Source: Branchiostoma floridae
Taxonomy: Eukaryota > Chordata > Leptocardii > Amphioxiformes > Branchiostomatidae
Reading direction: 5' to 3'
Length of the DNA stretch: 64,000 nucleotides
Assembly: GCF_000003815.2 (NCBI RefSeq)
Contig: NC_049979.1
Span: 10,267,831-10,331,830, forward strand
Part shown: positions 933 through 23,142 of the stretch, piece by piece
Layout of the letters: every line of letters begins with the position of its first letter
How positions within the stretch are numbered: the stretch's first letter is position 1
The notes under the pieces: generated by a model
Told to the model about the DNA's origin: nothing
Database searches by the model: none
Seen by the model: the letters and a program-made list of their open reading frames with translations, nothing else
Program-made: the position numbers and the translations under genes

Positions 933-3900
933 ATGGCCAGGTGGCTTTTGGTCGCACTGATGACGGCCATGGTCGTGAGTAACAGCCTTGCCTCTCCCCC
1001 GGAGGGCGCCGACGCCTTCATACAGCCGGCCGACGTCTCCGAATATGCCGATCTCAAGGACGAATCGGCTGCTGCACCAGTTGACGTTATGGTTGAGCCA
1101 CTGGTGAATATCGGAAAGGACATCGTCGCTGAAGCGGCTAAACCGAGACGCCACCCTTACGGGAATGACGCCATGGGCGAACGCAAAGGTACGAATGATG
1201 AAATACTTAACTAGAGGAGAGTTCTGCACAGATAACTTTCAGGCCAGCAGAGAATTTCCTCTTGCACGTAGCCATAGACCGTGTTATAGCTATAGCTGTA
1301 TCTTTCCCCCTGTTGCTCCCTAATCCGGAGCTCTCTACTGGTCATAAAAACCTGCACCCAAAGGGTAATATTGCTAGAGGTGGGCGACCATGCAGTGCGC
1401 TGTCGTCTGTGACAACATGTCCCCGGGTTTCGACAGTTTCTACTATATTTTCAGTCTACAATGGTGTCCGATGGAGACAACCTTTACTCAGAAGTTGGAC
1501 AAGTTATGTATGCCACAGTTAATTTCCCTTAGAAGCGCAATAGTCCAGGGGAGAAACCCAAAAATAAGCATCTCGTCGTGAGCACACCCCGTATACAATT
1601 AGTTCAGTTGCTAAGGAAACGATACTTCCATAGCAACGGAAAATATTGGATTCATCCATACATGAAGTAGTTGTAACTAATTTTCAATAAAGATAAAGCT
1701 GAAATTTGAATTGTATGCGCGATACCCATGATGTATTGGATTTCTGTAGTTTTACTCCAAATAAAGCAGCATTCACGTAACGTGTGACATCGATCACACT
1801 TGAAGAAAGTCCCAAGCGACAGAAGAGAGTTTTTATTTTCTGCCCATAGCGTGTTTCTATGGCGAGCGTTGTTCTGAGAATCTCCTCATAAACTGCTGTC
1901 CGTATCAGAGTCAGTTCATCTGTCTGAGATAGAGAAGATCGAGTCGCCCTGGATGCCTGTCCTATCAGTTCTATTACGTCATCCGGCCCAAGTGCATGTT
2001 AGAATTGAGCTTACAAGTTAAAGAAAATTGTCATGGCTTCATTGTTTTAATGCAACAAAACAGCAAATAGTGTCACAGTTCCCTTATATTGATATGCTGA
2101 GTCATACTACTATATCTATTTTGCTACAAAATCTTTAAGGTACTCTTGTTTTAGATATGCCAATCAATTGTGCGAACACGAGAGTGTAGGGTTCCACCTC
2201 AGTACTCTTTCACCTATCTCAAGATATTGACAATACAAAGGACAATGGATATTTACGTAATACTGAGTTTTGAGTTATGTGTGCCTATAATGTACGAAGA
2301 AGAATGGAATAGCCTCCCTCGATCGTTTAATCATACCCATCGCCTTGTGCAAGAACGCGAATTAACCGAAACTAGGGCACAGCTGCGAAGAAATGTAAAA
2401 AAAAACTGTACTTGTGCATTTTGTTGGGGGAATCATACATGACCAAAATGTTTGGAAAACCTTCCCATGGCTGTTGCCTAAAATACACGCACGCGCGCCC
2501 AAGACTAAAGCTATGATACAGGATGTAATCGCAGTCTTGATGTCAAAATATGGGCGTAGCAAACATCCAAGCAGCAATTATATGAAAGCCGAGCCTGATA
2601 TCCATCCTATTCTGACCCCAGTCCACTCTTCTGATCGCTTTCCGGCCGAAAATTTGCGATCAGAGGAGCGAACCGATGCAGGAAGACGGTGGATACCATG
2701 GCCAGGCTATTGACATTTGTAATACTTGCCGAACATGTTGAGGGGTAGTTCTTGATAAGATTGACATTTTGCTGACATAACAGGGATCCCATATCGTCAT
2801 ATGCCATCCGATGACGCCCCGCTGAGCAGGCCTGTGGATGAGGAAAGCCGAAGGAGACTGGCAGCAGGGTGGGACGACAAGGCGATCTCTACCAAGACGG
2901 GAGATCAACGTTTCAGCAAGACAGACGTGAAGAGGCCAAGACATAAGGATCCAAACAAGATGAAGCAAGGAGTCGATTATCCATCAGAATCGAAGCAATA
3001 CCGAAATTCTCACACACAAGAGCTGAAGAAGCGGCCTACAACACTGGACGAAAAAATGATGAATGGAAAACGGCCCATGTCGTCCATAAATCAACAAAAC
3101 CGTGACAGGGGAAAGGGGAGGGAATCACAACAGAGCAAACCACCCGTGCCCAAACCGAAGCCTTTCTTCACACAGTCCTCCAGCCGTCACTTGATAGATC
3201 GGGTTGATTCAGATAAAGAAAGGGTGGGAGCTATTCCAGAGAAGTGGCGGAAACGAGGTGGATTGAAACCTGATGCACGGCCAACCCAGACTGGACGAGG
3301 AACAAAAGACCATGGTAGCGTTCATGGAGATGGTCAGGGGCGTGGAGATGGTCAGGGGCGTGGAGATGGTGAAGAGCGCGGAGTCGGTAAAGAGCGTGGA
3401 ACTGTCCCAAAGCGTAGAGATGGCCAAGAGCGCCGAGCTGGTCAAGAGCGCGGAACTGGTCAAGATCGTGGAACTGTCCCAAAGCGTGGAACTGGTCAAG
3501 ATCGTGGAACTGTCCCAAAGCGTGGAACTGGTCAAGATCGTGGAACTGTCCCAAAGCGTGGAACTGGTCAAGACCGTGGAACTGTCCCCAAGCGTGGAAC
3601 AGTTGAAGAGCGTGGAACTGGCCCACGGGACTCGCGGAGTCGAGTTGGATCACAGCGTGATAAAAGGCCACCTAAAACCGATCCGAGAACAAACGAACCG
3701 GGCAACTGGCGCGATCGAATTGATAGATCATATATGGCCACGCTATATGGAGCGAATGAATGCCAGAAAGAACCACGCAGCACGTACAAGTAACCATCAT
3801 TCCAGGAATACGTATGCTACTCGACGCAAGTACAGGCCTGTTGATTGGGGTGGGAGGAAGCCAACGAACAGAACAAGCAACATCTCTAGCCAGAGGGTAA

Positions 3901-6900
3901 GCTAACAGTGAATACAATACTCGTTTTACTATTTGTTATCACGGCAGCAAGTATCTAAATTAGGCAATGTTACACATACCCATTTCATGGTTTTGAAAAG
4001 TAAGACAGAACTGATATGTTGAAAAGTAAGCGGAACTGTGAGTGTATGTGCATGACTTAGCGTGTAGATATGTGGATAAAAATTAAAAATTAATTTTTAT
4101 CTAACCTCAACCTTACTAGCGGCATTTTCTCATAAAGGGGAAGTCAATTTCGCCATTTCAGATAATACCAATCACTCTTGTATGTCCAGCGGTAAAGTTG
4201 GAATAATATGGGAATGTACCGATGCATAAAAATGTGTTACCTCTGTGTTCAAGTGAAGCCTCAACTTGTAGTATCAATGTCGATGTTGATGTTTCCAAGC
4301 TAAAATACTGCTTTTAGACAGGAGTTGAATTTACATTCGTTTGTTCGCCGCTTACAGAAAGTACAGAGTGGGAACCCGACAACAGCACGCGCACGGCAAC
4401 AGTACCTGGAACGACAGCGGAACCGACAATCTCAGCAAAGGCTCAACAGAGTCAAGGCAAAGATTGAAAAAATATTAAAGGCAGAGCCAGCCACATCGCC
4501 CCGAGCTAAACGTCTTCAGCGCCAGCTGAATCAAATCTACGATCTCTTGAAGAGACAGATTTTACAGGCTGAAAGGCCGGCCAATAGCACCGTGGCGCGA
4601 GGACAGGGAAGACCAACAACCAACGCGTCTGGCGTTTCCAACGACTCTCCACGGGTGCCAACGCAGCGGCCGAGGAACAGACGATCATCTGACGTAAGTG
4701 ACACAATGTACCATCTCTTCCAGAGAAGCTATCCCTTCAGGTCTTGCGCTTGTTTTCTTTTATGCAATACTTCTGCTTATCGGGACAATCAACATTCACG
4801 CCATGAGGATGATGCCAACATACACGTAGGCATGGTTTCAACATTTACATTGTTCACATTTATATTCAAATGAAAATGATTCTGTAGATTTGACTACGAA
4901 CTCGCCTGGAGTCCAGTCTTGTTTTCTTTACACTCGTTCTCTTTGAAATGTAAAAAAAGGCATTTTTTGGTCGAAACATAAATCGGCTTTATTTTCGGTG
5001 AAAACTACCTGGTTGTTTAGGAAAATTCCTCTTTTAATCATAGCCAATAAATGGCAACTTATTATTTTCTGTCCCATTGGTAATGTATTACAGGGCAGGT
5101 AACAAATGTTACCGGTAACGTTTGTTACAACAGTAGACTTTACCCTGTTTTTTTTTCGAAAGGACTTACATTAATGACTACAACATGCAGGTATAAGTGG
5201 ACATCCCTAGGGACATTTAAAAAGTGGGCAGCTTATTTATACCAGGTCAAATAGAAAGCTTAGACAGCATCGAACAATAGTAACATGTTACAGTAATTTC
5301 TGTACAACATTTTGTTAAGCAAGGTGGGATACAAATGGCAGTCAACAACACTTTCTTGTTTCTTTAGAAAGCCAGAAAAACTGTACAGCGTTAAAAAAAC
5401 GGTCATTTCTAGTCTTATACGTGGACAATATAACCGTGGCAACCATCGTACTCGTGGTGGTAACGTTTGTTACAGAATCTGGCGACAGGCATAAACCACC
5501 TCACACAGCTTCCAAGATCAGTGACAGTAGCGACCTGACGTGATCGGGCAAAGGGCCTGGGTGGCTGGTTTTACCTGCCGACAATCATTCTGTGAACTGA
5601 ATTATTACATTTGGGGCTACTATTTGAATTCTTCGTGTCTTCTCAGGCGACAGCCAATTTCTATTGAGTAAAATCCCACCCGTGGCTATGATAATCTTCC
5701 AAGCCATCAACCAATATGAATGTTGTATCTTTTGTAAAACACTACAGGGATTGTGGAAAAACGAAGGAACTAGTGATTTTTTTGTGAAATTTTCTGCATA
5801 TCAAGTCGCAAAGGCAGGCGACAGCATTTTTTACATTTAAATGAGAATGAGCCTTTCGTCCGCTCCCGAAGGTCGCTATCCCACCGACAACAAAGTAGCG
5901 ACCTTCGGGAGCGGACTAAAGCGAACAAGGCTGGATTCCAGGATACCTACGAACATGACAAACATTCAGCATGTCCTGTCGTATTGGTTATACACCGCCA
6001 TCAGCGAACAGTCCTTTCGTCAGGCCTAAGATAGATATCCATTACAATACCATGTTGCAGAGGTAAGTTATTTGAAATTTTATTACCTCCATGAAATGTC
6101 ATGGAATGGAGGTTATATTTTCTGTTATGTGTCTCTGTCTGTGTAGATGATTACTCAAGAACGGCTGGATGGATTGGTTTCATACTTGTTGTGTTGGTGG
6201 GGTGTGATGAAAGCTCGAATCGATGAGATTTTGGGAGCCGTATCTGTCGTTATAATTGATGTAATAATATCAGAAATCACCCCTATATTTGAGATATTTT
6301 GGTACAGGCATCGTGCTTTATGTGTTTGTTAATGGGCTTAGCTCCAAGCAGATGGTGAGGTGACAGCTGTTTGGGGAACCCCGAGTTTTTTTAATATGAT
6401 AATTAGTTTTATTTATGTCTGCTAAGGATATCATGGAGATGTGAAGCGTAAATATAATTGTAAGAAGTTGAGGTACATTTAACGATAATGCTTAACAGGT
6501 ATGGATGTCTCACATACTGTACTGCTGATTTGAGTGACATGGTGATTAAAATGCCATTAGGTCCTCTCATCTGGGTTGGGTGTCAGAAGTTTTACGGGCG
6601 ATACAGATGTTCTGATTTTGTTACGATAAGGGACAGTTGTTAGTTGTCTCTTTCGTAGCCAATGGTACTTGTTTTTTAGCAGACGGGGTTGGCGCCAAGT
6701 ATTCATCTTACAGTTGGTGTAGGGCTGTCAGAGGAAAGTGTGCATCTCGTTTTTGTACCGTGTGAACAGCTGATGTTATGACATATTGGTGGAAAATCAA
6801 ATCACCATCTGACTAAAGTTGGCCACATCCCTTCTTCTTTCTGAGTTTCCCAACTTCCTCCCACCACACAGCTCTGAGGCACATAGTCGAACCTCAATAA

Positions 6901-9900
6901 TGCTGACAACCTTAGACATTTTAAATGCCAAACATCAAGCTTAAGGAACACCACGCTACCATATGCCGTCGACCTCTTAAACGCACATTACACAATTAAG
7001 TGTCACATTTTGATAATTACTAATCAGATGGACATCCTCTGTGTCATTAAATAAATACACCACTACTTTCCCATAACATTTATATTATATAACCATTACT
7101 CTCAAATACAACCGACTATAAACATACATACCATCCACAAAAAAGCAATAAATATTTCATGGAGGTATGAGGTCCCCGAACTCTAGTTGTGATGTTCTTA
7201 CATCAACATTGTCAGATATCGCCATCGGCGTCAGCAACATGTCAAATTTATGTTGGACAAAATGTCGACTCTGTCTTACGAATACAACTTTCTTTGAAAC
7301 AATAGAGTAGTCTATTTTCAATTTTTTAAGACTCTTGTGTGGTATGGTAAGATTCATTTATTCTTTTCTTACAGAGAACGAGGCCGGCACCACAACAGTG
7401 GCGGCGTGGACGACAGTCATACACAAGTCTCAACAGGTTGAAGGAGAGGATTGAAAAACTTCTGAAGACAGACTCCGGAACATCGCCCCGATCTACACGT
7501 TACCAGGAAAAGCTCGAGCGCATCTACGCATTTCTGAAGAGGCAATTTCTGCTCTTCGAGAAGTCGGCCAAGAGTAGAGCTGCCATGTATGGACGGGAAA
7601 CGTCGGGAAATAGCACGTCTAGTGCTTCAAATGGCACTACACGGACGCAACTTTCAAGGAGCAAACGGTCGTCTGAAGTTCGTCCCTTTGCGAGGACCTT
7701 AGAGGTCATGTCCGAGGCCATGTCCAGCCTGCTTGGGGTACGTGCAATTTTGTACATTACATATCACTGGTTTGCTGTTAATTGATGTTTGAAGGTGAAA
7801 AGGGACTATTAGTTTTTTTTTTTTTAGTGTTTGCTACTCTTCCTGGGGAGGAAAAAGGTAATGCAAAACATTACAGTCAACGTACATCTCCTACAATGAG
7901 TTGATTTTACTAATGTTTATCAGAACGGTTGGCTATAAATCTGGAAATGTTGACGGTATGACCGACATTGCCGGTCTTGACACCTCTAGAAAAGTGTTCA
8001 AATCATTCACTATCTTATGCTTACAGAAGAGACTACAACAACAGCAACGGGAACGCCCAGTGGACCCAAGGCGTGATTTTACCAACAGAGACATGGCAAG
8101 TAAACAACGGCAACGGGGACAATTTTCAAGTCTCAACAACAGGAAGGCGAAGCTTGAAAAAATGTTAAGGACGGACTCTCAAAGCAGCACGTCGCCCCTA
8201 TTTGAACGTCTTCAGGAAAGGTTCCAGCACATCTACTCACTTATGAAGAGACTGCCGCTCATGAATGCTCACGAACAGTCAAAAACCAGCGAATCTGGGT
8301 CGCAGCTTTCGAGGAATAAACGATCGACAAAGTACGACCATTTTCAGAGAAACAACCTTTTCCCATCTGACATGCGTGATTTTGTCAACAGAGCTATGCA
8401 AGCATCAATCAGGGCAATGAAGAGGCTACCATCGAGCTATGATCAACAATATTCAAAGAATGAACTTCCTAGTCCGTATGGAAAGGGGGTTCCAGAGGGT
8501 GTCGTCAGTAGATTGAGTGTGCAGTTAAAACCACAGCCTCCATTTTCCTTGGTAGACACCAGGAGTGGATACGACAGCCCCGATGTGAACCAACTAGCGA
8601 CGATTGAGACGTTGGTGAAGCAAACGGAGCACGATCTAGAAAGGTTGGAGAAAACTATCGACAAGTCAGAGAAACTCGGCACTTATTTCCATGACAATAG
8701 CATTACGAAATCAATGGACACTGCTCGCGACGCGATGCACAAACACATCGCTTCCATCCATCAAACCATCATGACCATTCTCGATCCAAGTGATGATGAG
8801 AAGGAGGAGATGGAGGAAGACTACTATGACGACGAACTAGAGGAAGATATCGACAGTGTCGACGACGACGACGACGACTACCAAGATGATGAAAACGACA
8901 ACCATGACGAAGATGGCGACGATGGCGACTATGACGGCAGGGGTGATAATGACGGTGACGACGACAGTGGCGATGAAGACGACAGTTATGATGATGACAA
9001 AGACGACAGTGACAATGACGAAGACGGCATTGATGATGATGATGATGGCAGTTATGATGATGACGAAGATGTCGATGGTGAAGACGACCTTGATGACGGG
9101 GAAGAAGAAAGTGATGACTATGACGAGATCGACGAAGATGATGACAGTGTCGGAGGAGATTTCGACGAAGATGTCAGTAATGAAGAGGATGAGGATGACT
9201 ATGATGATTACTATGAAGAGGAAAGTGATGGAAATGAAGAGGAAGACGAAAATTATGACAACGAAAGCGTCTATAGTGACACTGACGACAAGGATGCACT
9301 GGTGCAGAAGCTTATTTTCAAATTCAGATCTGGCCTACAAGGTCTTACTACCGTCGTGGATGATCTTGAAAGCCAGGTCAATCCACAGCAAAACATCAGT
9401 GCTGGCAATCTGGAAGACCTGAACGCAACTTCACCGCAAACTCTTCCTACCGACAAACAGTTCCCTCCACCGCCTCCATTTAGGGAACCTGACAGAAAAT
9501 ATCAGCTACAAGGACCAGAGGCCTGGGAAAGGGGTCGCAGAGTCTTGAATGCTGTGAAGTCCTACGTCTGTGGTAGGGTTGACACTGAACACCCTGTTAT
9601 CGGTAGGTTCTGTGACAAAGATATACCGTCCATGGCCCCTTTCAAATTGCTTCGCAGCCGCGATGACTGGAGAAAGTGGGTTGGCGTGTATTTCCGCATG
9701 ATGAAAATGTCAGAAGAAACAGCAATTGCAGAGATCCAACAGTTAGAGGCAGCCGGCTTACTGACTACACAGCACCTGCTTGACATGTTCCTCAGTACAC
9801 CTATCACAGTTCGAGCCATGGAACAGGTCTCCCGCAGCCACGGCGTCCCGGTAGAGCAACTCCGTGAACAGCTGCGAAGTGGTCAGGTCGACATTCAGAC

Positions 9901-10903
9901 CGTCAACGATATCCTGCTTTATATGAAGAAGGAAGCCTACAGGTCGTTCACTATACACACTTTAAACAACAAAGTCACATTGGAAGAGAGCAATGATGAC
10001 CTGACAAAGATAACAGAGGACAAGTCCAAGTTCCCAGACAACCGTGAACAAGAAGTCGGCGAAGAAAATCTTGTTGACCTAGAATCTGAGCCGAACAGGA
10101 ATAGAGAATTACCAGAAGAATTTCAACCAGACGAAATCGAAACAGAACTCCAGATGGACAATGGGATTGACGGTGAAGCACTCCTAGAAATTCCCAATTC
10201 GGAAGTTGTGTTGGAGGCGGAGTTGGAAGGCCAGGAGATGGGCGATGAGGACGAATATCCGGAGTTTGAACCTGTGCCGGAAGACGAGCTTGACGATCCT
10301 GCTTACACGTTACAACCAATGGAGGATGCTACGCAAATACTTGGACAAATTGAGGAGGAGCTGGAGGAACTGGGGCTGAACTTTGACGTGGATGACGAGA
10401 AAGAGTCGGAGTTTGAAAAGTTGAAACCCATCTTCGGAAGTGGTGTAGCCCAACCGGAAACAGCTGACAAACTGAAGAACTTTGCGTCGCTGTTGCAAAA
10501 ACGTCAGGTTTCCCTGCGAAAGCCCGAATATCGTTTCAACATCAAGAAAGTCGCGGATACATTCCTGGACGTCTCCGAGGCGCGGCGCGTGGCCCATCGT
10601 AGCAATGCTGGAGAGGAAAAGGCCAGCTCTGCCGTTCAGGGACCAACCATGATCGCCGTGGTTGCAGCAGTGACTGGGGCAGCCGTGTTCGTCGTCATCA
10701 TTGGAGTGATGCTGAAAGTCAGGTGTGTTATAGACACTACATGGATACCGCAGAGAGTAAAATAACGTTTAGATAAGAGCATCTTGTTGTGACATCGCTT
10801 ATCTGTTATAGAGCTTATGTTTTTGTTTTCTCTTTGTCGCAGATTCAGGCAGTCTCGCCGCGAAGGCAAAACCACCCTACCGGCCACCAACCTTGACATC
10901 TAG
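933..10903 (+). CDS. Gene 1: large type I membrane protein with three furin-bounded duplicated exons (unrecognised family)
   Basis: The in-frame model has exons 933-1188, 2784-3789, 4318-4693, 7375-7737, 8027-10722 and 10843-10903, giving about 1,585 aa with all phases consistent. The ATG at 933 opens a signal peptide (MARWLLVALM..., cleavage near residue 20). Residues about 86-420 are Arg/Lys/Gly-rich with a repeat array. Residues about 421-760 hold three related segments, one per exon, each ending in R-x-[KR]-R-S. Residues about 923-1090 are almost all Asp/Glu. Residues about 1160-1310 look folded and contain two Cys. A second acidic stretch precedes the single transmembrane helix (about 1541-1563) and a 22-residue basic tail. 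I do not recognise the family; secretory-pathway, cell-surface location is inferred. The junction between the second and third coding exons is the least certain: a stronger donor at 3897 would need a frameshift. Confidence 0.75.
1189..2783 (+). other. Intron of gene 1
   Basis: The donor is AAG|GTACGA after 1188 and the acceptor is AACAG|GG before 2784. The interior contains a 14-mer GTTGCTAAGGAAAC (1607-1620) that fits the RFX X-box consensus RYYRYYNNRRNRAC. No coding potential was recognised. Confidence 0.6.
3324..3630 (+). repeat. Coding minisatellite, 18/36-bp units, in gene 1
   Basis: Four near-perfect 36-bp copies start at 3452, 3488, 3524 and 3560 and encode GTGQDRGTVPKR. Degenerate 18-bp half-units flank them (for example GDGQGR twice near 3330-3365). 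The unit length is a multiple of three, so copy-number change keeps the frame. Another forward frame and two reverse frames are also open across it; these are shadows. The product is a basic, Gly/Arg-rich, probably disordered segment. Confidence 0.85.
4318..4693 (+). other. Gene 1 duplicated exon, copy 1
   Basis: The core begins at L-N-R-V-K (4442). It shows two predicted helices separated by T-S-P-R: a K-x-x-I-E-K-x-L-K stretch, then R-x-Q-x-x-L-x-x-I-Y-x-L-L-K-R. After a Thr/Asn/Ser-rich linker it ends at RNRR-S (4673-4687), a consensus furin site. The donor GAC|GTAAGT at 4693 is phase 0. An alternative acceptor at 4357/4358 (CTTACAG) resembles those of copies 2 and 3. Confidence 0.75.
5858..5916. 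repeat. Perfect 21-bp hairpin in an intron of gene 1
   Basis: GTCCGCTCCCGAAGGTCGCT at 5858-5877 plus one more base recurs as its exact reverse complement at 5896-5916, with a 17-nt loop. The high GC stem stands out from the AT-rich intron. It could be a foldback repeat terminus or a structured RNA segment. Confidence 0.8.
6084..7167. mobile_element. TIR element, about 1.08 kb, TA target duplication
   Basis: TACCTCCATGAAAT at 6084-6097 is repeated inverted at 7154-7167. The flanking TA fits a Tc1/mariner-like target duplication. A second copy of the terminal motif folds into a hairpin at the left end (6086-6112). Just inside are CTGTCTGTGT and TACTCAAGAACGG, which match in inverse order the right end of the element at 18980-20354, so both are likely one family. 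No transposase was seen. Confidence 0.65.
7375..7737 (+). other. Gene 1 duplicated exon, copy 2
   Basis: The acceptor is TTTCTTACAG before 7375 and the donor is GGG|GTACGT after 7737; both are phase 0, so the exon is symmetrical. The core starts at S-L-N-R-L-K (7426), keeps I-E-K-L-L-K, T-S-P-R, I-Y-A-F-L-K-R, a Ser/Asn-rich linker and the furin-type RSKR-S at 7657-7671. The residues after the site also occur, in part, in copy 3. Copy 2 resembles copy 1 throughout its core. Confidence 0.85.
8027..8330 (+). other. Gene 1 duplicated segment, copy 3 (start of the giant exon)
   Basis: The acceptor GCTTACAG precedes 8027, phase 0. The core begins at S-L-N-N-R-K (8129), keeps L-E-K-M-L-R, T-S-P, I-Y-S-L-M-K-R and ends in RNKR-S (8312-8326). 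The exon then runs on without a break to 10722, so the third copy is fused to the downstream acidic and membrane part. Confidence 0.8.
8790..9295 (+). repeat. Coding acidic tract (GAY-rich) in gene 1
   Basis: About 165 codons are mostly Asp and Glu with scattered Ser, Tyr, Asn and Gly. At DNA level this is an imperfect GAC/GAT/GAA trinucleotide-like tract, which also opens a Thr/Met-rich shadow frame. The product would be strongly negative and could bind calcium or basic partners; this is inference. Confidence 0.85.
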
Positions 10904-11095
10904 TTTCCCCGATATTGATGAAGATGATCAGAGCAGATCCAGTATCCATATGACGCCATGTTTAATTTCGGCATTCTTCTTCATATCTCTCTGCATGGAT
11001 CGTTCCTTTAGATGACATTTTTTTTTCGAAAGTGCAACTATTCTAGATGTAAGCACTATTTAGCAGCCTCTTTGAAACGTACACGCGTAAAGGTT

Positions 11096-12558: not shown

Positions 12559-15500
12559 ATGGCATCCCGGACACAGCTGTGTCTTGTCCTGCTGCTTCTG
12601 GCGGGGATGATGACCTCCAGTGAAGCATGGCGGACACGGAAGACATCAGGCAAGACAAGCACCAGCACTGGCACCACCGAGGAGGAGACTGACAACGCTT
12701 TGGCCGCTATGCAGCAGATGTTCGAGTCCGCGAAGGGACGTTTGCCGGAGGACCTGGAATCCAGAATTGGTGGAGGGGGTAATCGACAGCCTGCCCCTGA
12801 CGCCCCGGAGGTACAAGATTTGTTCTCAGATAGACATTGCAAAATATATTCTTTGCGTAAAAGTTCTGATTGTGGAACGACTTATGAATATGTTTGTGAA
12901 AACCTCGTTTATGTGTTTTCCCCTCTTTTCTCTGTCATCTTCTCAGACCTCTGTGACGGAGAATCAGGAGCAAGACGCGCCAGAAGGTGGGTTATATAAC
13001 GTTGACTGTTGCTTTTTCTTTTAAAAACTCGCAGTGTGGTAGTGTTTGAGTCCTGTCGTAAAGAAAGGTCAGAAAAGACATAGTCCTACGATTCTTGCCT
13101 TTTATTACAAATCTTGTATAGTAACCAGGGACATCATATATCTTGGTTACTATCTGTACTGCACGATTTTCTTCTTTATGGCGGCATTTTAGCATATCAT
13201 TTTGTTTGATAACAGCTCAAAGTCGACGGAAGACAGGAGGGTTTCAGATGGAGAACATCTTTTCTAACATCGGTGACAAAGCTGCAGAGAAACTGCAGAA
13301 CCTTCAACCATCCGGAACGTATTCCACAGGCTTTGACGGTAATTTCATGGTGAGAGAATCCCTCCCTCTGCTTAAGATGTTACGCTAGATATTGTCGGTT
13401 GTGTGGAGAAGGGTCGTGAACTGGTAATATTTGCAGGAGGCGTTTTCAGAAATTGGTAATATGAAGCTTAAATCAGTTGAACTTTGCTCTGCTCTACTTG
13501 ACTGCAACAATAGATTTGTTTCGTTTTTTTGGTGGTTCAAAGTCTCTCTTTCACCTCAACTTCCCTAATGTAGCGAACAATGTAAGAGAACACTACGGTA
13601 GCTAAGTTCCTTAAAACAATAGGGAATGATGGATGCCGATTTTTGTATTGTACCGGACATGCGTCTTATACAATAAGAATCATATATCCCGGTTGTATTC
13701 CCAGGAGGCTATGAAAGAGCGGTTCCAAGATTTGGCAGACGGAGGAATAGCAACAGGTGCACGGCAGAAACAAGAAGAACGGAGGCCGTCGGAGGAGGAA
13801 AGGGGAGGCTCTGCTGGACGTCAGCAACAGGAAGAACGCAGGCCGTCGGAGGAGGAAAGAGGAGGCTCTGCTGGACGACAGCAACAGGAAGAACGGAGGC
13901 CGTCGGAGGAGGAAAGGGGAGGCTCTGCTGGACGACAGCAACAGGAAGAACGGAGGCCGTCGGAGGAGGAAAGGGGAGGCTCTGCTGGACGACAGCAACA
14001 GGAAGAACGGAGGCCGTCGGAGGAGGAAAGGGGAGGCTCTGCTGGACGACAGCAACAGGAAGAACGCAGGCCGTCGGAGGAGGAACGTGGAGGCTCTGCT
14101 GGACGACAGCAACAGGAAGAACGCAGGCCGTCGGAGGAGGAAAGGGGAGGCTCTGCTGGACGACAGCAACAGGAAGAACGGAGGCCGTCGGAGGAGGAAA
14201 GGGGAGGCTCTGCTGGACGACAGCAACTGGAAGAACGCAGGCCGTCGGAGGAGGAAAGGGGAGGCTCTGCTGGACGACAGCAACAGGAAGATCGGAGGCC
14301 GTCGGAGGAGGAAAGAGGAGGCTCTGCTGGACGACAGCAACAGGAAGAACGGAGGCCGTCGGAGGAGGAAAGAGGAGGCTCTGCTGGACGACAACAACAG
14401 GAAGAACGGAGGCCGTCGGAGGAGGAAAGGGGAGGCTCTGCTGGACGACAGCAACAGGAAGAACGGAGGCCGTCGGAGGAGGAAAGGGGAGGCTCTGCTG
14501 CACGGCAGAGACAGGAAGAACGGGCACATCGGAGGCCGTTGAAGGAGGAAATGGAAGGCTCTGCTTCAGAAGAGGAAACAGAAGTCGACGAATCCACGCA
14601 GGAGGAAATTGAACAAATTGAGGAATCCGTCCAAGAGGCAAATGAACACATGGAGCAAATGGAGCAAACTCTCCAAGAGGAAATAGAACAACTGCAGCAA
14701 GCCGCACAAGAGGAAAGGGAACAGACGGAGCAAGCCGTACATGAGGAAATGGAACAAATGGAGCAGGCCGTACATGAGGAAATGGCACAAATGGTGCATG
14801 AGCTAGAAGAGGAAGTCGGACACGAGGAAAGTGTTCAAGACGAACAGGTGCTGGAAACTGCAGAAACCGCACTCACTGATGAGGAAAGGGAAGCAATGTT
14901 GCAATCCGTCCATGACCAGGTCAGTGAGGGTATAGAAAAACAGGTGTATGAAGCTATGTTTAATGTACTTGTGCCAGAAGACAGCACAGTGGAAGAGCCA
15001 GAGGAGGAAGTATTGAGTCGAAGCGTCAGGGCAGCACCAAACAAGAAGGGCCGTGTGGAAACCGGTGAAGAAGATGTGGATGGAGACACAAAGGGCAAAC
15101 GGCGTAATAATATCAAAAAGGGAGGTTCGGCTGATGGTTTGGTCAATGATGAATATTTCCTCAGCCCCGACCACCCCAGAAACAGAAAGCAAGAGAACGG
15201 CAAAGACGAGGACGACAAGGAAATGTCAGGAGACGGATCGGGCAGTGGCAGTGGTGACGGAGAAGGCAAGGCGTACGGGCGGGAGAAGGCTGGAGGCCAA
15301 GGGAAGCCTGAAGGCAAAGGCAAGCCTGAAGGCAAAGGCAAGCCTGAAGGTAAAGGGAAGCCTGAAGGCAAAGGAAAGGCTGCAGAGAAGGGCAAGGCTG
15401 GAGAGAAGGGCAAGGCTGCAGAGAAGGGCAAGGCTCAAGGCAAAGCAAAATGGTGGGAGAGAAGCGAGGCGGAGAAAGAACTTGAAGTCGAAAAGGAGAA

Positions 15501-16411
15501 AGAGATGCAGAAAGCAGTTAAAGGAGAGATGAAACAATTGGTCAAGAATTTGATTATGGAATCCCTGAGTGAAATTACGGAGGAGGAACAAGATGGAGAG
15601 ACAGTGGAAGGGCAAAAGAAGAAGCCTGATACAGAAGAAATAAAATCTGCTTTGGCAGATATCAAGGCAAAGATGGGGAAAGGCAAGGGCAGCAAAGGAA
15701 AACAGGCAACGGCCACCGAAACCGAAGAGGAAGAAGTTGTAGATGCGGGGGAAAAAGAGAGCCGGCTGCAGAAGATGCGGCAGCAGCTTTTGAGTCGAAA
15801 GGGCAGGGAGGCGACCTTGGGAGAGTCTTCTTCAGAGGCCAAGGACCTAAGCAACCTGCAGGGCTCCAGCATCGCCGTGCTTGTAGCTGGAACCGCCATG
15901 CTGCTGCTCGCCGTGGGACTGATGGTGCAGAACAGGAGGATGGTCAGGTGAGGATAGAAACTCCTGCCACTGTCTGTTCTCAGTAAGGCCTACGTCACAT
16001 TTCCAAACTGGGGCCCGGCCGGGCTGTTTCGAAAATTAATATTTTTGCCAATAAATATGCACAAGGCATGCTGTTGAATTATTTTTGGTCTGTCTTATGT
16101 TTTTGTTGTTTTTTAAATCGTACTTTCCGTTCCCCCAAACTGCCCGGCCGGCCTCTGTGGAAATGTGACGTTAGCCTTCGTAGATAGTTGTACCGGCAAC
16201 CAATCATAGCAAAATATCTTGAATATCAATTACCACATGTTTATTCCTGTTGGTCTCATTGCTTCTTTCACATACTTTCTTGCTAACTGGGTTCAAAACT
16301 TTGCCCAACAGCGCCATCCTCCAGGGTGACAGCCACATCCCCGGGCGCGTGAGCTCGGAGTGGGCGGCTGAGGCAGGCGCAGTGCCCGGCAAGGCCTTCC
16401 ACGTCCAGTAA
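12559..16411 (+). CDS. Gene 2: repeat-rich type I membrane protein with coiled coil (unrecognised family)
   Basis: Exons 12559-12810, 12947-12986, 13216-13349, 13705-15947 and 16312-16411 join in frame to 922 aa. The ATG at 12559 opens a clear signal peptide (MASRTQLCLVLLLLAGM..., cleavage after about residue 23). Residues about 166-412 are thirteen copies of a 19-residue Arg/Glu/Gln repeat; about 442-511 is Glu/Gln-rich with 11-residue periodicity; RSVR-A (15019-15033) is a minimal furin-type motif; SGSGSG (15238-15255) sits among acidic residues like a glycosaminoglycan attachment site; a Gly/Lys/Pro/Glu stretch follows; the helix is about 863-884, then about 38 cytoplasmic residues. The final intron is phase 2 just after the helix, as in gene 1, and both helices open with Q-G-[PS]-[TS]...I-A-V. 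A diverged paralogue of gene 1 is likely. No function is assigned. Confidence 0.85.
13774..14514 (+). repeat. Coding minisatellite, 13 x 57 bp, in gene 2
   Basis: Thirteen near-identical 57-bp units start every 57 bases from 13774. Each encodes a 19-residue unit containing EERRPSEEERGGSAGRQQQ. A decayed fourteenth unit begins at 14515. Units differ by a few substitutions (for example GAAGATCGG in copy 10), indicating recent homogenisation. The unit lacks stops in other frames, which explains several long antisense frames here. Confidence 0.95.
14602..14811 (+). repeat. 33-bp (11-residue) coding repeats, hendecad coiled coil in gene 2
   Basis: Units such as EEIEQIEESVQ, EEIEQLQQAAQ, EEREQTEQAVH and EEMEQMEQAVH recur at 11-residue spacing, with one 14-residue variant. 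Hydrophobic positions are spaced as in right-handed or long coiled coils, so oligomerisation is plausible. Confidence 0.75.
15985..16178. mobile_element. MITE with about 45-bp imperfect TIRs in the last intron of gene 2
   Basis: AAGGCCTACGTCACATTTCC at 15985 recurs inverted as GGAAATGTGACGTTAGCCTT ending at 16178. The similarity extends through a GGCCGGGC-rich inner part. The element is 194 bp with an AT-rich middle and no coding capacity. Confidence 0.75.
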
Positions 16412-18495: not shown

Positions 18496-21016
18496 CCGGT
18501 GTGACAGCGATCTCGCCCCCCCGTGATCTCGCCCCCCCGGGGGCGAAATCACTAGCGATCTCGCCCCCCCGGGGCGAAATCGCTAGCGATCTCGCCCTCC
18601 CCAGCTAGTGATCTCGCCCCCCCCCCAAAAAAAACGGGTTTACATTACATTTTAGAAGTTGATTGGTATAAATCACAAAATGCAGTTTCAGAATAATATA
18701 AGTACACGAGTTTGATACATAACTCCATTCATAGTATCAATATTAACGTAATTACATGGTAATAAGATAGTTGAACTTGTTTCAGACAAGGAGGGTTGGG
18801 TCCCTTGTATTCCCATTATTGCATATACCTGAGTCTTGACATAAGATGTATTTCATTGTATTCACCTGTCCTCAAACAACCTATATATCTCCAATATGAA
18901 GTCTCTACCATGAAGTGACCACAAAAGAACTATGTAATGTCTTTATTAATTATGCAAATACTAGAGTTCCACGAACACATACCTTTGCCAAATAAACCAG
19001 GTTTGTTATGTAGAATGATGTCTGTAGACATAAATGTGTTACTCATTACATTTTATTTTATATGCCCGGAGTTGGTTCATAACATTTCGCCATTGCTTAT
19101 ACAAATTAGATCCCTATTTACATAATGATATTAAATTGTATCAAGCATCACTTAACCTATCAGCATACCAAAAATTATGATGATCCTTTCATCCCTTCTT
19201 GACTTATTCTCTTTCAAAGTAGGAAACTAAACCGGCTCCTGCAGTTCAAGAAAAGACGTTACCGGACCCAAACATACACCTCTTAGTCTCTGCCATCTTT
19301 CTCAGTTCCATATGTGTCAAGTTTGAAAGTCCTATCACGGAATGCAGTGGATTTATCAACTTTCCGCATTAATTATGCAAATTGTTAATTTATATAATAT
19401 ATTTTATAGTATCTCATTATGTAAGTTTTTACTTAGGATATCTACATACCAAAAATCATGACGATCCGTCAACATGTTCATATTTTGCCATTAATTATGC
19501 AAATGAGATCATCATCTGCATAATTAATATGTATAGATATTTCTTTCTTTCTCAGCTACAAATGTGACAAGTTTGAAAGTCCTATAAAGGAATGCAGTGG
19601 ATTTACAAACTTTCCTCATTAATTATGCAAATTAGCTGTCGATTTGCATAATTAGAATTCCATCATGTAAGTCTTCCCTTTGGCTATCTACATACCAAAA
19701 ATCATGACGATCCGTCAACACGTTTATATTTTCTCATTAATTATGCAAATGAGGTCGTCATTTGCATAATTAACATGGATTGATTTTTATCTCTTTCTCA
19801 TCGATATATGTGACAAGTTTGAAAGTCCTATCATGAAATGCAGCAGATTTATAAACTTTCCTCATTAATTATGCAAATTAGTTGCTGATTTGCATAATTA
19901 GTATTCCATAATGTACATTGTTACTTGGGCTATCTACATACCAAAAATCGTGACGATCCATCAACACGTTCTCGAGTTATTCTCGTCCTAAGTTTGAAAG
20001 GAAATCGGCGACTGCAGTTCCAAACAAGCCGCTAGGGGGTCCAAACTTGTAGCACTTACTCTCTGTCCCAAGGGCTATGTACCACTCAAAAATTATAACC
20101 ACAGCATGTCCAGAATACGAGATATCAAAAATTGAAGTTCTGCTGCAGTACCTTAGCAAGCCGCTAGGGGGCCCATTATCGAACTTGACCTTCGTTTTCC
20201 CGACCCCTACCCACCTACCAAATATTATTGGGATCCATCAAAGGCTTCTTGAGTTATGCTGTTAACACACAGACAGACACACAGACAGACACACAGACTC
20301 ACAAGCCTAAAACATAACCTTTGCCAGAATACCTTAGCCATTCTGGCAAAGGTAATTAGGTATTAATTAGAATAACGCACATTTTGGTATATGCACCTGG
20401 CCAAGAGATATCTTCACCTCCAACATGAATGTTTTTTCTAGTATTTAGGAACTGATGCATTTACCCGTGTTTCTTAAGACTGGTACTTTACCAGTGTTTG
20501 TGTAGCATTTAGCAACAGCTATATCAACTTGCGCGTAGATAGTGTTTATAATGAGCTATTATTCACGTGTGTTTTTGTTAGTGCTTTGGAAATGTTTCCA
20601 GCACAAGAAAGAAAACACTGTGACAAATTGAAAACATATAGCTGACGTATTCCGTACCATAGACGGTGTTGATTTATACGTTCGCAGTAGCACTGTTTTT
20701 ATGCCACCTCAGCTGCAAAAATTGTCTTTTTCATTTCAATGTTATGTTTGCACCGAACAATATAGTATCGACTTTCGAGGTATGACAGGCATCTTACGGT
20801 ACAGTAATAAGGTGCCATATAGGTACCAGGTAACACACCATACACGTTACTCCCCAGGTACAGTATAGTACCAGGTAGCGCACCTGTAATATGTAGTAAC
20901 CAGCTGCTCTTGGGGGGGGGGGGCGAAAACGCTAAAGGGGGGCGACAACGCTAGTGATCTCGCCCCCCGGGGGGGGGGGCGAGATCGCCGGGGGGGCGAG
21001 ATCGCTGTCACACCGG
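18496..21016. mobile_element. Outer TIR element, 2.5 kb, with C/G-rich termini
   Basis: CCGGTGTGACAGCGATCTCG at 18496 is found exactly inverted, ending at 21016 (CTGTCACACCGG). The inner flanks repeat GCGATCTCGCCCCC and its inverse several times on each side (18507-18620; 20920-21000). The interior is AT-rich, has no transposase, and holds another element (18980-20354). No target duplication is clear. Confidence 0.7.
18980..20354. mobile_element. Inner TIR element with 245-bp internal repeats and octamer motifs
   Basis: TACCTTTGCCA at 18980-18990 and its inverse TGGCAAAGGTA at 20344-20354 bound the element, with TA at the edges. The right end forms a hairpin (20316-20352) preceded by a CAGACAGACACA tract and a TTCTTGAGTTATG motif. 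Internally, units of about 245 bp starting near 19446, 19691 and 19937 carry ATACCAAAAATCATGACGAT. At least nine ATGCAAAT/ATTTGCAT octamers occur between 18950 and 19895, mostly as facing pairs. Confidence 0.65.
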
Positions 21017-21287: not shown

Positions 21288-21562
21288 AATAATAATAATA
21301 ATAATAATCTGGTGTATTTTGCCAGCCAGTAGGTACCCAAAGTATGAGTAATGAGGCTGTTTAACGTGGTCGAGGCACCTCCTCGAGCACGGGACCCCCG
21401 TTTTACGTCCCTCCCGGAAGACGATTTCGTGGAAAACTTCGTGAGGCTACAGCAATCCGGACGTCCTTGGTTGGTCCCCCATCCAAGCACTATCCGGACC
21501 GCGCGTTGCTTAACTTCCGAGATCGAGGGATCGGGTGTACCAACGCGCCACGCGGCCGTAGC
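21288..21562 (-). mobile_element. 5S rRNA-derived SINE (SINE3-like)
   Basis: Read on the minus strand, 21562-21445 resembles 5S rRNA from its first to last bases: it starts GCTACGGCC, contains GATCTCGGAAGTTAAGCA and TGCTTGGATGGGGGACC (the internal promoter region), and ends GCTGTAGCC. A non-5S body follows (21444-21310) and then an (ATT)n tail (21309-21288). A 5S head, unrelated body and simple-repeat tail is the layout of 5S-derived SINEs. It is not a plain 5S gene because it has many substitutions and no T-run terminator after the head. Confidence 0.8.
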
Positions 21563-23142
21563 ACATACAAACATCAAGAACAAACATCAACAATGCGAGT
21601 TATGTCGCAACTGTGTAGTACCCACCTTTGTAATCTCGCTGTTCACTTGTTAAGAAAGCTCCGGTTAAAAGGAGTGATTCATGAAGGGGACCAAACATTG
21701 TTATTATGTCTGGTCTCCGGGTTGACATCTTCAACAATTGCCCAACAGTTAGCCATAGGAGGAGAAACAAATGTCCCCCTCCCAGAGTTGGCACCCTAGC
21801 CTACTAGCCTGAGGTGTCTGAATGTCTAGCTCAGACGGGCCTACGCAAACTATCCTTGGAGGCATGTTGTCTCTGAAGCCTAGGACTGACCTGTCTAGGC
21901 CCTGGGAACAGTCTGGCATTTAGGATATAGTTTGAAACGTTCGAATTTGTGACACGTCCATGTGACACGTTCCGCTCAGATTCTTCTGATCACGCTGCCG
22001 TCCTTACACACATATTGGTAGAATCTTGCTTGTCTGTGATGTACACGAGATACATTTGTTTATTTGTTTGTGATAAACTCATAAGTCGCCAGAATATGGT
22101 AAGTGGTCCATTGTCCCACGAAATGCAACCATCACTTCTGGTAGAGACGCGCCATCTAGCAGTCGCACAGTGAATTCCTGCAGCAGCTAGTCCGTCTTGG
22201 CTTCATGAGCACATAGACTGAATCGTCGATCTAAATGACAACTTAACATGCTCGTTTCTGACTCAAGTGTTATCAAGATTTCCTTCCCTTTTCCACATAT
22301 GTATCACAACATGAACAGATTTGATAACAAGATGTAGGGATATCATCTGTTTCTTATGATAATGCTGCCAGAGTTCGTCACGGGGAATGACACTCAGGGA
22401 CATTTCCGTACGCAACACTCGGCAGCCTAGCAGGAGAGGATCGTCATGTGGCCTGCTGTGGTTTCCACTGACGGACAATTCTCTCCAATCGAGTCCCCCC
22501 TTCTTTATATACAACATCACACCATAACGACAGGCGAACTTTCAAGTTCATACACCATATTCATAAACGTTACGTATCAAATGGATTCTATATATCATAT
22601 ATATATCAAAGGATCTATCATGGAGCTGACAAACCATTTGTTGTGTAACAGTGCGGGGTTTAAGTAGCGCCAAACAACCATGCCAATCGGCTGATCAGTT
22701 TCTACTCCTTTCTTTCAGTTGTCTTAGTTATCAAAAGATTGGTGTTTTTACGTTTACAGTGAGTGTCTTCACGTGAATATTACGTATTTAAGTTGTTTTG
22801 TATGGGAGCGGACGTCTTCGTGTGAATTAATGTAGGGCTTCGGCGTGAATACACTTTACAGTTGTCTGCTAGGGGATTGTTCTCTGATGCAGAAAATGTT
22901 GCCTCAGATCAAGATCTTTTATTTTGCCCTACGTGCGAAGACAAAGATGATTTATTTAACCATTTCAATGTCAATTTCATTTTATTGTTAAACCAGGCGA
23001 TACATCATTTCTCGACTGTGATTTTTTTCACGTACCTCAGAATAAAACAACAACTACAAGAACATAACACAGTGGCCCTCCAAATACTAGTAGATAGTAA
23101 AACAAGAGACATGCAGTACTAATGAATAAATAAGTAAATACA
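21563..23142. other. Gene-free spacer
   Basis: Short open frames only, plus a TA-rich microsatellite-like patch near 22589-22610. Nothing recognised. Confidence 0.35.

Follow-up and report, generated by a model that had tools for sequence, protein, structure and literature searches.

This work describes gene 1, a gene predicted on the forward strand of a 64,000-nucleotide stretch of Branchiostoma floridae DNA (NCBI RefSeq assembly GCF_000003815.2, contig NC_049979.1, positions 10,267,831 to 10,331,830; referred to here as the window, and numbered from its first letter). Gene 1 was read as six coding exons, the boundaries of which are all sequence-predicted, and three of these exons carry homologous basic units in which an R-x-[KR]-R-S motif occupies the same aligned columns. 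We tentatively propose, at slightly less than an even chance, that gene 1 encodes a membrane-anchored secretory precursor, which a furin-type convertase cleaves behind each of the three duplicated units to free two or three basic peptides. From the repeats, the register of the sites, the charge layout, and the hydrophobic ends, we infer secretion, cutting, release, a role for an acidic block, and targets. A first-pass annotation had noted repeated units ahead of furin sites and read them as a possible source of secreted factors; its observation is confirmed in part, and its interpretation is partly supported.

Three homologous units in one predicted chain

The units, their cores, and their sites are located as follows.

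4318 to 4693, + strand: exon 3, unit 1 (start at 4318 or 4322, set by the exon-2 donor chosen)
4442 to 4555, + strand: core of unit 1
4673 to 4687, + strand: RNRR-S, furin-type site of unit 1
7375 to 7737, + strand: exon 4, unit 2
7429 to 7542, + strand: core of unit 2
7657 to 7671, + strand: RSKR-S, furin-type site of unit 2
8027 to 10722, + strand: exon 5, with unit 3, then an Asp/Glu-rich block, a two-Cys region, and a hydrophobic segment
8132 to 8251, + strand: core of unit 3
8312 to 8326, + strand: RNKR-S, furin-type site of unit 3

That the three segments are homologous, as previously proposed, is well founded: local alignment of the unit pairs gave scores of 178, 112, and 123, far above all shuffles (maxima of 70, 69, and 65 in 1,000 shuffles per pair). 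The other two units are 44% and 35% identical to unit 1, and when the whole gene 1 protein was compared to the window with tblastn, every unit matched the other two (E values of 1e-13 to 2e-4). Within the 38-residue core (omitting a two-residue insert of unit 3), 21/38, 19/38, and 19/38 positions are identical, and the alignment places the elements L-N-x-x-K, x-E-K-x-L, T-S-P, and I-Y-x-[LF]-[LM]-K-R in all three units. The units are free of Cys, as had been stated, and the predicted splice sites within the array, with AG/GT, are in phase 0. Homologous units in phase-0 exons support the suggested origin by exon duplication. That the units lie in tandem in a single chain rests on the predicted splice sites.

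No fourth unit was found in gene 1 by a profile hidden Markov model (HMM) built from the three units, and among 1,664 stop-to-stop frames of at least 25 residues in the window, only the three known frames passed inclusion (next E value, at least 2.2). In the genome of the species itself (513,431,437 bases in 431 contigs), a query made of the 102 residues that open exon 5 matched only these three places at an E value of ≤0.001 (three candidates, all scored); this query recovered unit 1 only at 5e-4, so that a more distant paralogue could escape. The 413 residues coded by 9482 to 10720 returned only their self-match at an E value of ≤1 (six candidates scored). To judge from these searches, gene 1 appears to be a single-copy gene of an unrecognized family.

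As a side observation, the end of exon 2 (3641 to 3790, including an RDKR-P motif) resembles the exon-5 tail at the protein level, with a score of 41 (P = 0.0005 in 4,000 shuffles), compared to ≤30 for other exon-2 stretches. It shows no likeness to the exon-4 tail (P = 0.40) or in DNA (P = 0.86). An earlier version against the whole unit gave a P of 0.02. The comparison is the best of eight and was not counted as evidence; the stretch is a possible remnant of a fourth unit. A likeness seen by eye between the second-frame exon-2 end and the exon-5 start was refuted by shuffles (P = 0.41; P = 0.90 for DNA).

Furin-type sites

R-x-[KR]-R-S is present in register in all three units, as annotated earlier. 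The further statement that each exon ends in a furin site holds for exon 3 only, where three residues follow the last Arg, including the P1' Ser. Exon 4 continues for 23 residues beyond its last Arg, and in exon 5 (2.7 kb) the site lies ∼100 codons in, with ∼800 more codons downstream. Over residues 86 to 801, the shorter R-x-[KR]-R motif occurs 5 times versus 3.6 expected (P = 0.29), and R-x-[KR]-R-S occurs 3 times versus 0.33 expected (P = 0.004; 5,000 shuffles in each case). Because the unit copies are homologous, the three sites are not independent events, and what matters is whether the site was maintained by selection. At each of P2, P1, and P1', the codon of one copy differs from that of the other two. 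At the DNA level, the site block of the tail aligns over 47 nucleotides at 74% between exons 4 and 5, and none of 2,000 dinucleotide shuffles was as good; the same was true of exons 3 and 4 (0/2,000), while exons 3 and 5 gave a P of 0.001.

The linkers ahead of the sites (39, 38, and 20 residues) align poorly, unlike the sites themselves. They are rich in Ser, Thr, and Asn, with five N-x-S/T sequons across units 1 and 2, a composition that would suit an exposed luminal linker. A further R-x-[KR]-R copy, in exon 2, is RDKR followed by Pro, and Pro in this position makes a poor furin site. Matches to the proprotein-convertase P domain occur at 16 places in the genome, some of which are probably pieces of one gene.

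One additional feature bears on the ancestral boundary of the unit.

4703 to 4738, + strand: start of intron 3, resembling the exon-5 coding sequence after its site (8327 to 8362)

This 36-nucleotide match scores 14, whereas 127 control stretches taken from intron 3 gave no more than 10, and 1 of 5,000 single-base shuffles reached its score; its protein reading gave a P of 0.02 in shuffles, and none of 253 control stretches was as good. Because the start of intron 3 resembles exon-5 coding sequence, the unit probably once extended beyond the site. On the basis of this one short match, the ancestral exon probably contained the site in its interior, with exon 3 now having a donor just behind it. 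Elsewhere in intron 3, 69 bases (5853 to 5921) match their own reverse complement at 75%, as in a hairpin or a small inverted-repeat element.

Exon model and protein layout

The remaining features of gene 1 are as follows.

933 to 1188, + strand: exon 1; ATG and signal-peptide-like N-terminus MARWLLVALMTAMVVSNSLA..., ending in phase 1 at AAAG/GTACGA (read from translation and splice context)
2784 to 3783, + strand: exon 2, one of three frame-keeping versions (other ends, 2868 and 3223); basic and low-complexity, with a 36-bp minisatellite
3386 to 3625, + strand: minisatellite in exon 2; period of 36 bp, 6.7 copies (Tandem Repeats Finder), coding GTGQDRGTVPKR and variants
8729 to 9301, + strand: acidic block; residues 900 to 1090, net charge of -102
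10652 to 10708, + strand: hydrophobic segment IAVVAAVTGAAVFVVIIGV; residues 1541 to 1559, candidate transmembrane helix, Kyte-Doolittle mean of 2.8
10843 to 10908, + strand: exon 6, short basic tail and stop

When joined, the predicted exons give a frame of 1,583 residues with 3 Cys. The strongest hydrophobic segment is that at residues 1541 to 1559 (2.8), and the runner-up is the N-terminus (residues 4 to 22; 1.47). Net charge per hundred residues runs from +9 to +16 over residues 101 to 800 and is -47 and -51 over residues 901 to 1100. Exon 5 supplies ∼899 codons, and its open frame has 967 codons.

The signal-like start is in frame with the array for three of the four exon-2 donors tried: those after 2868, 3223, and 3783, each with its matching exon-3 start, stay in frame to the natural stop, while the strongest donor is out of frame. 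Joining exon 1 directly to exon 3 leads to early stops (codons 89 and 134). With exon 2 ending at 3783, skipping of exon 4 keeps the frame, whereas skipping of exon 3, or of exons 3 and 4, loses it. The exon-2 minisatellite is free of stops in several frames of both strands, and its openness is thus no evidence of coding. Its GTGQDRGTVPKR repeats, with KR between copies, look like a miniature of a multi-copy peptide precursor; these peptide-like repeats may be mere minisatellite drift.

Proposed precursor and its products

In the proposed mechanism, the gene 1 product would enter the secretory pathway and stay anchored through a single C-terminal membrane segment, and furin-type enzymes would cut after RNRR, RSKR, and RNKR. 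Two single-core peptides would be freed, comprising residues 542 to 642 (101 residues, 11.7 kDa, isoelectric point [pI] of 11.4) and residues 643 to 764 (122 residues, 14.4 kDa, pI of 11.2). Core 1 would be left on a long basic N-terminal fragment, and the membrane-held acidic remainder would carry a net charge of -136. The release of several similar peptides, as the first-pass annotation had it, would thus apply to two units and not to the first. The units have pIs of 11 to 12 and net charges of +12 to +22, and the opposed charges of the two precursor halves suggest neutralization within the precursor: the acidic block would probably bind the basic units and keep them quiet up to the point of cleavage. 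After release, the helices, being basic and lacking Cys, would most probably associate with anionic partners, for example membranes, glycans, or matrix.

Tandem repeat polyproteins are called rare in one source (PMC3079579). If the cuts are made, gene 1 would add a further tandem repeat polyprotein, with repeat, release site, and charge counterpart in one gene. If the proposal is true, the birth of a multi-copy factor through exon duplication could be traced, and candidate secreted factors would be named in a lineage near the chordate root. A bolder version, which we regard as doubtful, would have gene 1 define a new multi-copy secreted-factor family. Gene 1 would then encode an orphan polyprotein anchored in the membrane, its basic helical factor having been copied by exon duplication along with the furin site that releases it, and the large acidic block would hold the factors until cleavage.

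Evidence against the precursor and alternative explanations

Several observations weigh against the precursor. An RAKR motif lies inside the core of unit 1, which means that a matching motif need not signal a cut between units, and unit 3 has no sequon. Support for helicity, and with it for the helix hairpins proposed earlier, is weak: compared to shuffles, the hydrophobic moment gave P < 0.05 in two of six candidate helices and P of 0.05 to 0.06 in two more, with the other two failing. Estimates of the ratio of nonsynonymous to synonymous rates (dN/dS) diverge by method. For whole units, the Nei-Gojobori method (NG86) favored the precursor, with bootstrap medians of 0.31, 0.62, and 0.50 (upper 95% points, 0.52, 0.94, and 0.79), while the Yang-Nielsen method (YN00), with values for two pairs only, gave ∼0.98 for units 1 and 3 and 0.69 for units 2 and 3; over the 38-codon core, dN/dS was ∼1 in both comparisons with unit 3. 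Drift could also have retained the three sites, with a simulated P of 0 to 0.22 depending on branch length and constraint. At the dS of whole units (∼1.1), all three sites were kept in 0 to 1.6% of runs, and at the core dS of two pairs (∼0.4), they were kept in 1.6 to 22%, in each case by assumed constraint. A claim of strong selection on R-x-[KR]-R-S, initially based on long-branch drift (P of 0 to 0.03), was dropped when the lower core dS raised this value to 0.22.

In one alternative, the product is an uncut, membrane-anchored bipolar scaffold for adhesion or matrix, with a basic and an acidic half, and the R-x-[KR]-R motifs are unused sequences that came along when the units were duplicated. 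The 3.6 motifs expected anyway in so basic a stretch, site retention compatible with drift, and the Pro behind the extra exon-2 motif all agree with it. Set against this are the enrichment of R-x-[KR]-R-S and the greater divergence of the linkers than of the sites that follow them, and we consider such a scaffold unlikely. An additional objection to the precursor concerns exon 2. Scored with an approximate matrix, the donor after 3896 is the strongest (5.0), compared to ≤1.73 for the 11 GT sites that rank next within 2800 to 3899 and -3.9 for the donor after 3783, and with either exon-3 start it runs into a stop at codon 422, upstream of the array. The main product could then be a short secreted basic protein of 421 residues, with the array read only in another transcript or with a small assembly length error in exon 2. 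A second frame is also open ahead of 3896, which fits this explanation. However, three donors do keep the frame into exon 3, the matrix is an approximate one, and the 967-codon exon-5 frame together with NG86 dN/dS below 1 over whole units suggests that the array is translated; we rate the short protein as clearly improbable.

Finally, as a sub-case of the furin-cut precursor, the units could be cationic host-defense peptides that are kept harmless by an acidic pro-part. Their high pI and net positive charge, lack of Cys, and partly amphipathic character are what such peptides would call for, and the chain also carries a large acidic block. The units are long for this role, however (∼100 to 120 residues), mean hydrophobicity is negative in all six candidate helices, and no family match was obtained at the cutoff, making a host-defense function very unlikely.

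Comparison with known systems

Searches of Pfam gave no match at the cutoff for eight pieces, six of them from gene 1 (taken from exons 2 to 5, outside the acidic stretch at 8822 to 9310); the best was to a tape-measure model (E value of 0.0044; 17.2 bits versus a cutoff of 41). In the PDB, no matches were found for the unit profile at an E value of ≤10 or for 9311 to 9976 at an E value of ≤1, these being the queries used. Gene 1 was not named in any of the titles listed by literature searches, which is no proof that the gene is undescribed.

By analogy of operation, and with no claim of membership, the closest system would be the nematode polyprotein allergens (NPA, ABA-1 type), which PMC3079579 describes as arrays of helix-rich units, repeated in tandem and cleaved at furin-like basic motifs that recur at regular intervals; tandem units and furin-like motifs are common to gene 1. 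The units of gene 1 occupy three different exons, and the introns between them measure 2.7 and 0.3 kb; the introns of NPA are very small or absent according to the same text (PMC3079579). Gene 1 has three diverged units compared to a dozen or so in NPA, and it differs further in being strongly basic and in having an acidic block and a C-terminal hydrophobic segment. Unit size is similar in the two. No NPA model was among the Pfam matches of units 1 to 3 at an E value of ≤1, in a library presumed to include one.

Profilaggrin is a basic, Cys-free keratinocyte granule protein with an S100 domain. Like gene 1, it has repeats and furin-like motifs, at which its repeated units are cleaved (PMC3079579). 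No S100 match was found in the gene 1 pieces at an E value of ≤1. Neuropeptide and prohormone precursors and granins combine a signal peptide, repeats, dibasic sites, and acidic stretches, and the exon-2 minisatellite similarly yields GTGQDRGTVPKR repeats, as in multi-copy neuropeptide precursors. Gene 1 departs from this group in having units of >100 residues, no Gly ahead of the three furin-type sites, and a hydrophobic C-terminal segment; only the minisatellite has the look of short peptides flanked by dibasic sites, the units being too long. Type I furin-cut precursors, such as ZP proteins and growth-factor precursors, share with gene 1 an N-terminal signal, a furin-type site, and a C-terminal membrane segment (in gene 1, a signal-like start and a hydrophobic segment), but no ZP or EGF model was among its few weak Pfam matches at an E value of ≤1.

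One candidate relative, stretch L004 of viral_contigs, was rejected. It was the only one of 90 pattern-matched stretches to pass, with 25% identity to residues 23 to 102 of unit 1 and a score of 72 (maximum of 42 in 2,000 shuffles), compared to P of 0.41 and 0.22 for units 2 and 3. Because it was picked by pattern from a huge collection and fits one unit only, it was taken as chance; by eye, it resembles a phosphoesterase fragment. For 9482 to 9976, five pattern-matched stretches in viral_contigs included no relatives.

Neighboring features

The next gene on the same strand (12562 to 15951) has a signal-like start, an R-S-V-R-A motif, and a C-terminal hydrophobic segment. Its homology to gene 1 was not accepted, with P of 0.72 for the N-terminus, 0.70 for the middle, and 0.012 for the C-terminus around the hydrophobic segment. 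This gene also contains a 57-bp minisatellite (13.4 copies; 96% match). Farther downstream are a 246-bp tandem repeat at 19296 to 19971 (2.7 copies; 84% match) and, on the minus strand at 21444 to 21563, a 5S rRNA-like match of 54.6 bits over the full model length.

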